From Bacteroidota bacterium (lineage in GTDB: Bacteria > Bacteroidota > Bacteroidia > Chitinophagales > Chitinophagaceae): a stretch of 56,180 nucleotides of DNA. The stretch is from positions 1 to 56,180 of the forward strand of contig RDXK01000098.1 in the NCBI GenBank assembly GCA_004292605.1, in the 5' to 3' direction. The notes under the pieces were generated by a model. That model saw only the letters and a list, made by a program, of their open reading frames with translations. It was not told the DNA's origin and made no database searches. This document shows positions 15,848-20,493 of this stretch, piece after piece. Position 1 is the stretch's first letter. The number at the start of each line of letters is the position of its first letter. Position numbers and translations under genes: made by a program.

Positions 15848-17227
15848 ATGGCTGGTAACGCTTCCATTGCTGCTGCAGGCGGCACAGTGCCAAAACCTAA
15901 ACTAAGTTTTTGGCAAATTTTTAATATGAGTTTTGGGTTTTTAGGTATTCAGTTCGGTTTTGCCTTGCAAAATGGAAATGCCAGTAGAATATTGCGAACC
16001 TTTGGTGCCGATGTAGAACATCTAAGTTGGTTTTGGCTGGCAGCTCCGTTAGTGGGTATGATTGTGCAGCCTATTGTTGGCCATTATAGCGATAGAACTT
16101 GGAACCGGTTTGGTAGGCGTAAACCGTATTTCTTAAGTGGAGCCATACTTTCTAGTATTGCTTTGTGTTTAATGCCCAATGCTAGTATGTTTACAGCTAT
16201 TGCTCCGTCGCTAGTAATTGGCGCTAGTATGTTGATGATAATGGATGCTTGTTTTAATTTGGCAATGGAGCCGTTTAGGGCATTGGTGGCCGATAATTTG
16301 CCCGATAGTCAGCGTACCGCAGGGTTTTCTATACAAACCTGCTTAATAGGTATTGGTGCGGTAGTGGGTTCCGCTTTTCCGTGGATGCTCAATCATTGGT
16401 TTGGTATAAGTAATGAAGCCGCGGAAGGTGTAGTGGCAGAAAATGTAAAATGGGCTTTTTATATAGGTGCTGCGGTATTTATTGGTGCTATTTTAATAAC
16501 GGTTTTATTTACGAAGGAATATGCTCCTGCCGAGTATGCACAGTACCACGGTAAGGCCGATAATGAGCATGAAAGTTTCTGGGCCATTTTTAAAGATTTT
16601 GCACGTATGCCTAAAACCATGCGTCAGCTAGGTTTGGTACAATTTTTTAGTTGGTTTGCATTGTTTGGTATGTGGGTTTTTACCAACGATGCCGTAGCTA
16701 CACACACTTATGGATTAAGTATTACCGATAAAAGTTCTGCTACCTACCGGGAAGCTGGCGATTGGGTAGGGATATTATTTAGTGTGTACAATGGTGTATC
16801 TGCCGTGTGGGCACTTTTTCTACCGTTTGTGGCGTTAAAATTAGGTCGTAAAGGTACCCATGCTTTAAGTTTATTGTGTGGCGGTGCTGGTTTGTTAAGT
16901 ATGTATTTTTTTAAAGATCCTCAGCTGCTGATTATTTCTATGGTAGGTGTAGGAATTGCTTGGGCTAGTATTTTGGCCATGCCGTATGTAATTTTATCGG
17001 GCAGTATTCCTGCTGGTAAAATGGGTGTGTATATGGGTATTTTTAATGTATTTATCACGCTACCACAGTTGCTAAATGGAGTTATTGGTGGGCCTATTGT
17101 AAAGAATATTTATAACAATGAGCCCATATACGCTATAGTGATGGCAGGATTTTTTATGTTGTGTGCTGCGGTGAGTGTAATTTATGTGTACGATCCCGGG
17201 GCAATTAAAATGAATAAGGAAAGCTAG
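15848..17227 (+). CDS. SLC45-type MFS sugar transporter
   Basis: A 459-residue protein with about 12 hydrophobic helices. The GPH/SLC45 family signatures are visible: FGFLGIQFGFALQNGNASRI in helix 1 and PIVGHYSDRTWNRFGRRKPY in loop 2-3. Bacterial members are annotated as sucrose or maltose symporters in the inner membrane. The GH13 amylase gene downstream makes a maltodextrin-type substrate the best guess. A 17-bp inverted repeat just before the start may be its operator. Confidence 0.85.
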   Translation: MAGNASIAAAGGTVPKPKLSFWQIFNMSFGFLGIQFGFALQNGNASRILRTFGADVEHLSWFWLAAPLVGMIVQPIVGHYSDRTWNRFGRRKPYFLSGAILSSIALCLMPNASMFTAIAPSLVIGASMLMIMDACFNLAMEPFRALVADNLPDSQRTAGFSIQTCLIGIGAVVGSAFPWMLNHWFGISNEAAEGVVAENVKWAFYIGAAVFIGAILITVLFTKEYAPAEYAQYHGKADNEHESFWAIFKDFARMPKTMRQLGLVQFFSWFALFGMWVFTNDAVATHTYGLSITDKSSATYREAGDWVGILFSVYNGVSAVWALFLPFVALKLGRKGTHALSLLCGGAGLLSMYFFKDPQLLIISMVGVGIAWASILAMPYVILSGSIPAGKMGVYMGIFNVFITLPQLLNGVIGGPIVKNIYNNEPIYAIVMAGFFMLCAAVSVIYVYDPGAIKMNKES

Positions 17228-17270
17228 TGAATGGAGGAGTTAAAAGACTTCTAGGAAACTACTAATTGAT

Positions 17271-17398
17271 AAAATAATACTTTTTTATAGAGTATACTTC
17301 ATAAAATAATACTTTTTCTTCGATTATACTTTAAAAAATAATGCTTTTTTGTGAAGTACAGTTGAAATTATAGTACTTTTGGTGGAGATAGACCAGTA
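17271..17398 (+). repeat. four imperfect 32-bp tandem repeats before the DUF4143 ATPase gene
   Basis: Units begin at 17271, 17303, 17335 and 17367, exactly 32 bases apart. The first two share AAAATAATACTTTTT; the third has one change (AATGC); the fourth is weaker (ATTATAGTACTTTT). Each of the first three units also holds a second, weaker copy of the core (TATACTT or a variant) 17 bases after the first, so the core recurs at 17/15-base steps. The last core, TACTTTTG (17374-17381), fits the -7 promoter consensus, with TTTG at 17348-17351. The ATG follows 16 bases later. An operator or iteron array is the likely role. Confidence 0.75.
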
Positions 17399-18525
17399 TG
17401 TACCATCGACTACTCAAGCAAAAAATACAGCAGCATTTCTACAAGGGATTTGCCATAGTGCTTATTGGCCCTAGGCAAATTGGTAAAACCACCTTGGTGC
17501 AAGATTTGCTTTTGGAGGCAGGTAACAGAGGTTTGTTTCTTAATTGCGACGAATTAGATGTAAAGCGAAGCTTAGAGCTAGGTACATTAGCTGCACTAAA
17601 ATCCATCATAGGTACCTATTCCTTAATAGTAATAGACGAAGCCCAGCGAGTAGAAAACATTGGCATAATAGCGAAATTATTAGTAGACAATTTTAAGGAA
17701 AAGCAGTTTATTATCACCGGTTCCTCCGCCTTAGAAATTGCCGATAAAATATTTGAACCCCTTACCGGCAGGCAACTACAATACCAAATGTATCCGCTAA
17801 GTATGCAAGAAATGTATACTGGAAAATCGGTTTTGGAAATTGATAGAAATATTGGATGGCATTTGGTGTATGGTTGTTACCCCAATGTGGTAAACCATAG
17901 AAGCGATGCCGAGATGATTATTAAAAATTTGGCTGGCGATTATTTATACAAGGATGTATTGGCTTGGAAAGACATCCGTAAGCCCGATTTATTGGATAAA
18001 ATTTTGCACTTACTAGCGCTACAAATGTGCAGTGAAGTATCGCTAAATGAGCTAGCTGTACAGCTAAAAATAAGCGTTGCCACGGTAGACAATTATATAG
18101 ATGTTTTGGAGAAAGCCGGCGTACTACTTAGGCTGCAAAGTTACAGTACTAACGAGCGTAAAGAAGTAACCAAAATGCGTAAAGTGTACTTTTGGGATAA
18201 CGGCATTAGAAACGCCATTCTTGGTAGATTTGATGACGTTACCAACCGAACAGATGCAGGTGCACTTTGGGAGAATTTTTTAGTAGCTGAACGGCTGAAA
18301 AACAATAGTTATCACCAAAGCACTGCAAAGGCATTCTTCTGGCGAAGTAAACAACAGCAAGAGATAGATTTTGTAGAGGTAACGCAAAACAGCATAGCGG
18401 GCTATGAATTCAAGCTTAACGTGTTAGCCAAAGGCAAACCCACCAAAGCATTTACCAATTTATACCCGCATGCCACCGCGGAAATAATACATAACGAAAA
18501 CTATACGCAGTTTTTAAATCTGTAA
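17398..18525 (+). CDS. AAA+ ATPase with DUF4143 domain
   Basis: A 375-residue protein. Walker A GPRQIGKTT is near residue 24, Walker B is LIVIDEAQ, and the sensor region is FIITGSSA. A winged-helix-like segment (about residues 205-245, with LAVQLKISVATVDNYIDVL) and the C-terminal DUF4143 region with EIDFVEV and YEFKLN follow; the latter resembles a PD-(D/E)xK nuclease core. Such ATPases are scattered in bacteria and archaea and their role is unsettled. The gene stands alone between a sugar transporter and an amylase, with a striking repeat array in front, which suggests independent acquisition and its own control. Confidence 0.88.
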   Translation: MYHRLLKQKIQQHFYKGFAIVLIGPRQIGKTTLVQDLLLEAGNRGLFLNCDELDVKRSLELGTLAALKSIIGTYSLIVIDEAQRVENIGIIAKLLVDNFKEKQFIITGSSALEIADKIFEPLTGRQLQYQMYPLSMQEMYTGKSVLEIDRNIGWHLVYGCYPNVVNHRSDAEMIIKNLAGDYLYKDVLAWKDIRKPDLLDKILHLLALQMCSEVSLNELAVQLKISVATVDNYIDVLEKAGVLLRLQSYSTNERKEVTKMRKVYFWDNGIRNAILGRFDDVTNRTDAGALWENFLVAERLKNNSYHQSTAKAFFWRSKQQQEIDFVEVTQNSIAGYEFKLNVLAKGKPTKAFTNLYPHATAEIIHNENYTQFLNL

Positions 18526-18636
18526 CTATAGTCACCACCAACTGCTCCACAAAATGCTTCCACAGTGGCCTTGGTTTCTTATAGAGAAAATATCAATTTT
18601 TTGTTGCATTATTGTACTACTATAAACGAGTGCCAC

Positions 18637-20493
18637 ATGTTAAAAAATACGATTGCCGTACTACTTGCTATTTGTAGTATCCAGATATTAGCAGCCCAAA
18701 CAGTAGAGGTATATCCCACCAATTGGTATACAGGTATGAAGTGGAATAAGGTGCAAATTCTACTTCGCAGTACCGATGCAAATTTTTCGAAGGCTAAATT
18801 TCGTACCAATTATCCCGGTGTTACACTTACCAAGCAACATAGTTTTGAAAATGGTAAATATGTAGCTTTAGATGTGGCAATAGCATCTAACGCTAAGCCC
18901 GGAAACGTTGTTTTCACGTATTCCGTTACTAATTCCAAACAGAAAGATCTAGTGTGGCCATTATTATCTCGTAGAAAAGGGAATGGTACACAGTTTGCCC
19001 AAGGTGTTACCAATAAAGATTTGATGTATTTAATAATGCCTGATCGATTTGCCAATGGCGATTATACCAATGATAAACTTCCAGGCTTCTTGGATCAATC
19101 GCTGGATAGAGATTCCATCTACCACCGCCACGGAGGTGATTTGTTAGGTATTCAACAGCGACTGGATTACTTGACCGACCTTGGTGTTACCGCCCTTTGG
19201 TTAAATCCTGTGTTGGAAAACAATATGCCTAACCGTACCGAACATGGTTATGCCTTTACCAATCATTATAAAATTGATGCTCGCCTAGGGGGCGATAAAG
19301 CCTACGAAAATTTGGTAAACGCTGCTCACACCAAGGGGTTAAAAGTAATTCAGGATGCAGTGTACAATCATATTGGTAGCGAGCATTTTATAGCCACAGA
19401 TGCCCCTTCAAAAGATTGGTTGCACCAATGGCCTACTTACACCAATACACATTACAAAGATCAAACCCTGTTCGACCCATACGCAAGTAAAAGGGATAGG
19501 GAAGTGATGAGTAATGGTTGGTTTGTACCTTCCATGCCGGATGTAAACCAAAACAATCCTTTTGTAGCTAATTTCCTTATACAGCATGCGTTGTGGACAG
19601 TAGAGCGTTTTGGCATTGATGGTTGGAGAATTGATACCTATGCCTACAACGATTTGCCATTTATGAACGCTTGCAACGCCGCCTTATACGCTGATTTTCC
19701 AAAGATTACATTGTTTGGCGAAACATGGGTGCATGGCGTAATTAACCAAGCCTATTTCTGCGATAACAATTTGAACATTGCGTACAAGAGTAACTTGCAA
19801 GCAACTACTGATTTTCAAACACTTTTCTACGGTATTCAAGATGCGTTAACCAAGCCTTTTGGCTGGACGGATGGTGTAAACAAACTATACACTACACTTG
19901 CTCAAGATGTGATATATAAAGACCCAACCCGACAGGTGATATTTTTGGATAACCATGATATTGCACGCTTTTACAGCGTAATAGGAGAGGACACGGCTAA
20001 ATATAAAATGGCTTTAGCATGGTTACTTACTTGCCGCGGTATTCCACAATTGTACTACGGAAATGAGATTTTGATGACGGGCTTCACAAACCCCGATGGA
20101 AATGTACGCCTTGATTTTAAAGGCGGGTGGAAGGAGGATACACAAGACAAATTCACCGCACAAGGGCGTACAGCTAAAGAAAACAGTATCTGGAATTATT
20201 TAAGGACCTTGGCCCAATACCGCAAAAATTCAAGTGCACTAACCACCGGTAAGTTTATGCAATATTTGCCGGATGATGGCTTGTACGTGTACTTTAGATA
20301 CAGCGGCACACAAACCGTAGCCTGCATTATGAACACATCTGGAAAGGTTAAAAAGTTTAATCTTCGGAATTATGAGGAACGTACCAACGGTTTTACCACA
20401 GGCGTAAACATTGTTACAAAACAAACCGTAGCGGTAGGTAGCGAGGTGGAAATAGGTGTAAATGAAATGATGGTGTTAGAGTTAAAAAAATAA
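18637..20493 (+). CDS. secreted GH13 alpha-amylase (neopullulanase/SusA-like)
   Basis: From the ATG at 18637 the protein has a signal peptide (MLKNTIAVLLAICSIQ, then LAAQ), an N-terminal beta-sandwich like that of cyclomaltodextrinases (about residues 20-105), the catalytic (beta/alpha)8 barrel, and a C-terminal beta domain. The GH13 catalytic residues are in place: D333 in GWRIDTYAY, E362 in GETW, and D441 in LDNHD. It should hydrolyse alpha-1,4 glucans or cyclodextrins in the periplasm. A GTG 24 codons upstream would bury the signal peptide and is rejected. The SLC45 transporter two genes upstream may take up the products. Confidence 0.92.
   Translation: MLKNTIAVLLAICSIQILAAQTVEVYPTNWYTGMKWNKVQILLRSTDANFSKAKFRTNYPGVTLTKQHSFENGKYVALDVAIASNAKPGNVVFTYSVTNSKQKDLVWPLLSRRKGNGTQFAQGVTNKDLMYLIMPDRFANGDYTNDKLPGFLDQSLDRDSIYHRHGGDLLGIQQRLDYLTDLGVTALWLNPVLENNMPNRTEHGYAFTNHYKIDARLGGDKAYENLVNAAHTKGLKVIQDAVYNHIGSEHFIATDAPSKDWLHQWPTYTNTHYKDQTLFDPYASKRDREVMSNGWFVPSMPDVNQNNPFVANFLIQHALWTVERFGIDGWRIDTYAYNDLPFMNACNAALYADFPKITLFGETWVHGVINQAYFCDNNLNIAYKSNLQATTDFQTLFYGIQDALTKPFGWTDGVNKLYTTLAQDVIYKDPTRQVIFLDNHDIARFYSVIGEDTAKYKMALAWLLTCRGIPQLYYGNEILMTGFTNPDGNVRLDFKGGWKEDTQDKFTAQGRTAKENSIWNYLRTLAQYRKNSSALTTGKFMQYLPDDGLYVYFRYSGTQTVACIMNTSGKVKKFNLRNYEERTNGFTTGVNIVTKQTVAVGSEVEIGVNEMMVLELKK

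Follow-up and report, generated by a model that had tools for sequence, protein, structure and literature searches.

A 32-bp dyad array in front of a PDC-S01-type AAA_14-wHTH-DUF4143 gene: a probable self-addressed operator whose geometry is conserved among homologues

What does a row of AT-rich, near-identical repeats do directly in front of an ATPase gene, and which protein reads it? The question is raised by a 56,180-nt stretch of DNA from a Bacteroidota bacterium of the family Chitinophagaceae (GCA_004292605.1, contig RDXK01000098.1; hereafter the window), in which such repeats lie between an MFS transporter gene and a gene for a AAA_14-wHTH-DUF4143 protein (Table 1). The original prediction, made from the letters of the window, described four 32-nt units and proposed an autoregulatory operator or iteron set read by the ATPase. 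That interpretation as a whole is partly supported by the analysis reported here, and we give a probability of about 80% to the reading that the array is the ATPase gene's own operator, bound and repressed by its own protein via alternating 16-bp sites.

Table 1. Features of the window around the array (window coordinates; dyad range includes the 8-bp arms).
Feature	Coordinates	Strand	Basis or remark
MFS transporter gene	15848..17227	+	Pfam; directly followed by GH13 gene in 9/11 relatives' loci
Array of four 32-nt units	17269..17396	+	Unit starts 17269, 17301, 17333, 17365; fourth unit degenerate
Lattice of seven dyads, 16 bp apart	17271..17382	.	Shuffle test
TTTG in unit 3	17348..17351	+	22 nt 5' of the -7 box; taken by us as a possible -33 element
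Predicted -7 box, TACTTTTG	17374..17381	+	Matches Bacteroidetes TAnnTTTG; in register with the seventh dyad (17374.5)
AAA_14-wHTH-DUF4143 ATPase-nuclease gene, 375 aa	17398..18525	+	Pfam; PADLOC PDC-S01
Residues 24-31, GPRQIGKT, presumed Walker A	17467..17490	+	K30 in 183/183 proteins
Predicted winged helix, residues 196-265	17983..18192	+	AlphaFold2 model, pLDDT 87, pTM 0.88
Predicted recognition helix with N-cap, residues 226-239	18073..18114	+	228 and 226 are the top two array-tracking columns
PD-(D/E)xK-like residues E322, D324, E337, K339 (motif presumed)	18361..18414	+	In 183, 183, 181 and 183 of 183 proteins
Cyclomaltodextrinase-like GH13 gene	18637..20493	+	ORF opens at 18565; ATG at 18637 is the likelier start

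The array is where the original prediction had placed it and stands far above chance, and two details of its internal structure had to be amended. Its units start exactly 32 nt apart, with identities of 27/32 (units 1 and 2), 24/32 (1 and 3) and 22/32 (2 and 3), and 16-18/32 for the degenerate unit 4. It is the highest-scoring tandem repeat of the window in TRF (score 115; 2.6 copies, 17269-17350), and in a lag-matched score over the intergenic region the best value is 42/50, compared with a maximum of 33 among 1000 dinucleotide shuffles. An inner copy of the core had been placed 17 nt after the first in units 1 to 3; units 1 and 2 show it clearly, with 9/14 matches apiece, and units 3 (4/14) and 4 (3/14) do not. 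The 17/15 sub-periodicity is better replaced by 16/16. Seven dyads centred at 17278.5, 17294.5, 17310.5, 17326.5, 17342.5, 17358.5 and 17374.5 pair 35 of 56 positions (shuffle mean 24.5, sd 1.8; none of 1000 shuffles reaches 35), versus just 24-27 positions at dyad spacings of 15, 17, 18, 20 and 21. The lattice z-score of the window is 6.3 at period 32 and at most 3.0 at six other periods. Dyads every 16 bp fit the earlier picture of copies about 1.5 helical turns apart, which would put bound proteins on alternating faces of the DNA.

Within its own genome the array stands nearly alone. A paired-core pattern (AATAATACTTTTT, 4-9 nt, TATACTT) has two matches, both inside the array, and its control pattern has none; with three mismatches allowed, a looser two-core pattern has 54+78 matches versus 46+35 for the control, and the sole match with one mismatch lies in the array. 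A BLAST search with the array region returned no match besides the region itself, and Rfam models over the window found three tRNAs and nothing else. Two familiar repeat classes were considered and rejected: the 32-nt units run head-to-tail without spacers, unlike a CRISPR array, and the neighbouring proteins match the AAA_14-DUF4143, MFS and GH13 families, none of them Rep, so the iteron part of the original prediction, in the sense of replication, was dropped.

To look for similar arrays in front of homologues was a check that the original prediction itself had proposed, with their absence as a refuting outcome; that outcome did not occur. Homologues were gathered from relatives, from the order and from named genomes, and the 200 nt 5' of each homologue start were compared with the upstream regions of other ORFs of the same loci. 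The first set, which includes the window itself, comprised 139 loci, of which 128 had a protein match and 119 were usable; 114 were left when identical or short upstream regions were dropped. Self-similarity at z≥4 was found in 51 of these 114 regions, 44 of them at a lag of exactly 32 and two at 33, compared with 4 of 157 control regions, at lags of 18, 20, 22 and 28. In the arrays at lag 32 (44 regions), the best dyad tends to have a partner 16 bp away (mean 4.24/8 versus about 2.5 elsewhere), and the second-best dyad centre falls at exactly 16.0 in 20 of them. A lattice score was then computed from the dyads at each half period together with the direct repeat, with z≥3 as a pass. At period 32 it was passed by 70 of the 114 homologue regions and by 0 of the 157 control genes, which may often be without a promoter of their own; at periods 26, 28, 30, 34, 36 and 38 the homologue regions gave 9, 5, 11, 7, 3 and 15 passes. 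A held-out set of 80 loci from among the matches listed, belonging to the same taxonomic order as the first set and in part to its genomes, gave 55 passes among the 79 scored (one had masked bases), and 6, 14, 12 and 6 passes at periods 28, 30, 34 and 36.

To remove redundancy, proteins below 33% identity to that of the window, or at least 80% identical to one already kept, were dropped. The 32-bp lattice then stands before 49 of 61 genes in the first set and 96 of 128 overall, the latter number being the 129 covariation loci described below minus one without a lattice score. Among the 32 of 128 loci that failed the test, many resemble by eye a single half-A/B/half-A unit, in which half dyads flank a central one. 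First-set loci below 33% identity passed in 3 of 10 cases. The letters of the arrays vary from homologue to homologue (TTCCAGTATAGTGGAA, GGTCATTA..TAATGACC, GGTGAATA..TTCACC, TTCGGTTTAAACCGAA, CGGATTGTAATCCG and others): the period is conserved and the sequence drifts from gene to gene. The original prediction had proposed a hunt for TATACTTT-like motifs upstream of homologues; the geometry is common to them and the letters mostly are not, so a search by that motif alone would have missed the homologues. Many arrays span just a few dyads. The longest ones lie upstream in L082 (about 5-6 near-identical 32-nt units) and L097 (about 6-7). In seven Bacteroidales loci (L085, L087, L092, L096, L098, L099 and L103) a common CCGTTGTGCACAAGC-like stretch was noticed 5' of the array, about 50-110 nt before the start; this stretch may mark the edge of an insertion, of attC type or another.

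The array also keeps a register with the promoter, all promoters in this work being predictions from sequence. The final core had been proposed as a -7 element, and it does fit the Bacteroidetes consensus TAnnTTTG given in the available portion of PMC6414381, while bearing the seventh dyad. Of 125 lattice loci, 85 have a TAnnTTTG box no more than 75 nt from the start and 40 have none there. In 71 of the 85 loci the box falls within 6 of the 16 lattice phases, around a dyad centre, compared with 32 loci expected, the six phases having been chosen after the counts were seen. The window array and its predicted promoter thus appear to be one structure in one register. Since the last dyad lies on the -7 box, an occupied last site should hide this box, which argues for repression over activation.

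Which protein reads the array was approached by covariation. Pairwise array similarity was compared with residue identity at each protein column after identity of the rest of the protein had been regressed out, this regression being the whole of the phylogeny control, in sets of 61 (first), 71 (held-out) and 129 (all) proteins. In the first set (323 columns), column 226 ranked first with r 0.184, compared with 0.163 for the maximum of 500 permutations over all columns, and column 228 ranked second with r 0.136 (95% point 0.137). In the held-out set (324 columns), column 228 came first: its 0.221 exceeds the largest permutation value, 0.185. Column 108, which lies outside the wHTH, and column 253 took second and third place with 0.143 and 0.142, short of the 95% point (0.154), and column 226 was outside the top ten. 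With all 129 proteins (323 columns), columns 228 (0.164), 226 (0.129) and 253 (0.109) took ranks 1 to 3 (95% point 0.103, permutation maximum 0.141), the latter two falling between the 95% point and the maximum. The covariation is modest overall (r 0.13-0.22), and when the first set was scanned in windows of eight columns the helix window came first (0.130), with one that starts at 119 in the AAA part close behind (0.124). The AlphaFold2 model, which was made without any array information, puts residues 226-228 where the recognition helix begins and residue 253 in the wing loop.

Single residues at position 228 go with particular array words. Lysine goes with AATCC/GGATT (22 of 26 loci versus 24 of 103, p 1.2e-8) and asparagine with GTGAA/TTCAC (15 of 20 versus 19 of 109, p 8e-7); both p-values pass a Bonferroni correction for 517 5-mers and 11 residue classes in tests that ignore relatedness. 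Glutamate (31 loci) has a weak 5-mer link and alanine (14 loci) no clear 5-mer. Taken together, these data support the finding that array specificity tracks the predicted DNA-contact residues of the ATPase. The lattice counts before non-redundant homologues and control genes (96/128 versus 0/157), with the wHTH positions that track the motif, lend support to the original prediction that the ATPase reads this array as its autoregulatory operator.

The protein itself has three recognizable parts. Pfam gives DUF4143 (5.5e-37), AAA_14 (3.8e-26) and HTH_11 (4.3e-06), with AAA_14 and DUF4143 over the cut-off, and PADLOC model PDLC04789 (PDC-S01) matches residues 1-373 of 375 at 5e-143. The middle part had been suspected of being a winged helix, and the AlphaFold2 model has one, built of h1 (196-208), h2 (216-223), h3 (227-239) and strands 243-248 and 261-265 that flank the wing loop. 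A PD-(D/E)xK motif is stated for PDC-S01 in the part of PMC12988326 that was available. Among 183 homologues at 33% identity or more, K30, E81, E322, D324 and K339 are present in all 183, and D80 and E337 in 181. As the Walker A/B and ExD...ExK residues are nearly invariant, both the ATPase and the nuclease-like activities are probably kept. Sequence searches of the PDB gave nothing at E≤0.1, and NCBIfam gave no match near the cut-offs. A structure search with residues 1-286, which by that range says little on the C-terminal part, returned archaeal ATPases first, then STAND proteins (NLRs, CED-4), and lower down Orc1/Cdc6, TnsC, an AVAST5 filament and MuB, as well as IstB. The closest matches in fold are the archaeal AAA+ proteins PABY2304 (2qen; Z 16.2 over 250 residues, rmsd 3.1) and SSO1545 (2fna; Z 15.9 over 256 residues, rmsd 3.2), both compared by VIA, with the aligned part stopping near residue 276 of the window protein. 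Orc1/Cdc6 (2qby) scores below the archaeal ATPases and STAND proteins, with Z 12.6 and an rmsd of 9.0 over 255 residues.

Through its profile match the ATPase gene is a candidate phage-defence gene. According to the sections of PMC12988326 at hand, PDC-S01 is the fourth most common prokaryotic defence (29,494 in Bacteria, 9,986 in Archaea), and most PDCs are candidates whose validation is pending; in rumen genomes it is the most frequent individual locus, as reported in the accessible text of PMC13356809. In Thermus thermophilus, TT_P0211 (AAA_14 + DUF4143) was 6.6-fold up with plasmid in an Argonaute-bearing strain and was one of the few genes to rise in the joint presence of plasmid DNA and Argonaute; in the strain that lacked Argonaute, no gene shifted by more than 4-fold with plasmid (PMC4406477, seen in excerpt). 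We take the Thermus gene as a lead for the window system, not as evidence.

The gene is spread in a patchy way. In the window the array and the ATPase gene lie within 17228-18636 and interrupt an MFS-GH13 (maltodextrin-type) pair. The ATPase gene was absent in all 11 relatives' loci fetched, and the MFS and GH13 genes are neighbours in 9 of them; judged from this arrangement, the array and gene appear to sit in the MFS-GH13 joint as one module. In the order, at least 113 of 396 genomes have a match at E≤1e-40. A phage collection gave 15 records with a match, mostly unannotated faecal contigs among the matches listed. Plasmid records with a match numbered 135, and 15 of these loci were fetched. 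Arrays of 32-33 bp were found in Treponema saccharophilum (L237, z 13.6), Bacteroides uniformis (L239, z 19.1) and B. finegoldii (L240, z 4.4). The eight alphaproteobacterial plasmid loci, at about 27-30% identity, include six with upstream direct-repeat arrays of shorter spacing: L250, L251, L252, L255 and L257 at 22-23 bp, about two helical turns (z 8.7 to 19.1), and L241 at a lag of 46, twice 23 (z 10.0). L253 is weak (z 2.8), and by the self-similarity score no array was found in L256 or in the Desulfosarcina, Thiothrix, Allochromatium and Spirosoma plasmid loci. The L250 gene lies after the plasmid repC. L233, a distant paralogue in the window's own genome, again has lag 32 (z 11.0). By eye, one palindrome of about 34 bp was seen in the last 60 nt before the start in L232 (own genome), L016 and the Spirosoma locus L243, and a shorter one in L236; for L235, another own-genome paralogue, the ORF chosen may not be the ATPase. 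In this small sample array spacing seems to go with the subfamily.

We propose that the AAA_14-wHTH-DUF4143 protein binds its own array through the winged helix. Within each 16-bp site, the variable half would be read by the start of the recognition helix (226-228), with added specificity from the wing loop near residue 253. Protomers placed head-to-head and tail-to-tail would give dyads every 16 bp, about 1.5 turns, on alternating faces, so that a 32-bp unit would correspond to two protomers and the array to a row of them. With the last site on the -7 box, RNA polymerase should be shut out once the array is filled, so that the gene would be repressed, and the repression would be relieved perhaps by invading DNA. 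What we infer here is that the protein binds the array directly, with one protomer for every 16 bp, that it represses the gene in a way that depends on ATP, and what relieves the repression. Because the helix and the array specificity drift together, each copy would be a self-addressed module, movable with its gene.

A different reader can be imagined. The array may be the operator of a separate host regulator with many targets, the ATPase gene being one of them, and palindrome arrays read by a separate small repressor do exist at defence loci, as with RptR and its three direct repeats (PMC12255303, in the portion available). A host regulon would have sites elsewhere, however, and the dyads are nearly confined to arrays. 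Pattern searches of nine genomes, by exact match to one dyad type each, so that weaker sites would escape, found 13 of 14 sites inside arrays and one elsewhere. TCGGTTNNAACCGA has two sites in each of three genomes, and all 6 of 6 are array positions 32 bp apart (its backwards control has 2, 1 and 1 sites in the same genomes). TTCCNNTATANNGGAA has eight sites in six other genomes, 7 of 8 of them in arrays, at four loci confirmed by sequence and in G418 by distance to the gene start (backwards control 0, 0, 0, 0, 1 and 3 sites); G413, the genome of L050 and one of these six, has zero exact matches to the dyad. This near-confinement makes a host regulator with a regulon unlikely, and the letters vary between homologues and track the ATPase's own helix, while the genes that flank the window gene encode a transporter and an amylase-family enzyme. 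We consider a host regulator quite improbable. A one-gene mobile element, with the repeats as its transposition or homing site, is an equally improbable reading in our judgement. It would fit the module's place between two genes that adjoin without it in most relatives' loci, the patchy spread in the order, and the structural matches to TnsC, IstB and MuB. It is also favoured by a slight likeness between the array and the 300 nt after the gene, which is higher within a locus than between loci (mean 12.4 versus 10.9; 0 of 2000 permutations; base composition left in). Yet a locus's own downstream stretch is the best match in just 5 of 64 loci (expected 1), and much of the mean is driven by L031, where the upstream motif recurs 3' of the gene in a strong copy (score 39) that nearly all of the 64 loci lack; a general paired end thus seems unlikely, and the array is in register with the promoter. 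That the repeats are a functionless, slippage-born tandem duplication of an AT-rich promoter is hardly credible. The units are AT-rich and near-identical, which is in its favour, but the exact 32-bp period and the dyad symmetry are kept across unlike sequences before dozens of homologues and are absent in the controls, and the conserved period tells against slippage as the sole explanation.

The self-operator reading can itself be extended. The array might also store a row of inactive nuclease that is released when the array is disturbed, an addition that we regard as speculative and rather unlikely; replication, degradation or competing DNA are tentative candidates for the trigger. In the same doubtful but possible vein, the array may serve as a DNA antidote and sensor, with the protein held in an ordered row as an idle nuclease, and loss, unwinding or titration of the array, for example in a phage takeover, would free both expression and nuclease. 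Some arrays, such as those of L082 and L097, seem longer than repression requires; the ATPase and nuclease-like residues are almost invariant in the 183 homologues; STAND proteins, Orc1/Cdc6, TnsC and MuB are among the structural matches for residues 1-286; and the Thermus AAA_14/DUF4143 gene responded to plasmid in the Argonaute-bearing strain (PMC4406477, in the part seen). On the other side, many arrays are just a few dyads long, and the Thermus gene is one distant member and plasmid without Argonaute changed nothing there.

If each copy of the self-operator carries its own address, many copies could coexist in one cell. The helix segment 226-233 was never common to two copies of one genome among 24 genomes with two or more fetched copies, which were picked by hand with some, e.g., G054 and the window's own, left out. 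The arrays themselves are slightly more alike within a genome than between genomes (13.0 versus 12.3 over 37 pairs, with the residual raised by about 3.6 standard errors), an excess that may come from base composition. Since within-genome similarity is not lowered, selection for orthogonality is unsupported.

Operator arrays and autoregulated AAA+ proteins are already known, so the finding is no wholly separate category. Type II toxin-antitoxin systems also autoregulate through a self-addressed, diversifying operator over their own promoter; the window system differs in being a single gene, whose product combines the DNA-binding, ATPase and nuclease-like parts in a single polypeptide. Orc1/Cdc6 with origin recognition boxes and DnaA with DnaA boxes are AAA+ proteins with a DNA-binding domain and repeated sites near their own gene. 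Compared with them, the window system has PD-(D/E)xK-like residues and gene-specific letters, and no replication role is indicated. The RptR operator, three direct repeats with a TAGCTA palindrome, is alike in that palindromes recur across the promoter of a defence locus; there the reading is done by a separate small repressor, RptR, whereas covariation here points to the ATPase-nuclease itself (PMC12255303, as far as available). In the open-licence PMC literature searched we found no description of the 16/32-bp geometry with its recognition code. The available portions of PMC12255303, PMC12988326, PMC13356809, PMC6414381, PMC5760070 and PMC4406477 do not describe such arrays, and those of PMC12988326 and PMC13356809, which treat PDC-S01, do not mention an upstream array or autoregulation.

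The finding is of interest because the gene family is large and because it lends itself to direct tests. The array gives each PDC-S01 protein a specific candidate DNA ligand, and at position 228 a legible recognition code begins to emerge, in which K goes with GGATT and N with GTGAA. The array could be used as a reporter for what lifts the predicted repression, and the regulatory geometry can be detected even where distant members differ in their letters and motif searches would miss them. If the proposal is true, a family of tens of thousands would share one self-addressed control principle in several geometries: 32 bp, 22-23 bp and a single long palindrome.
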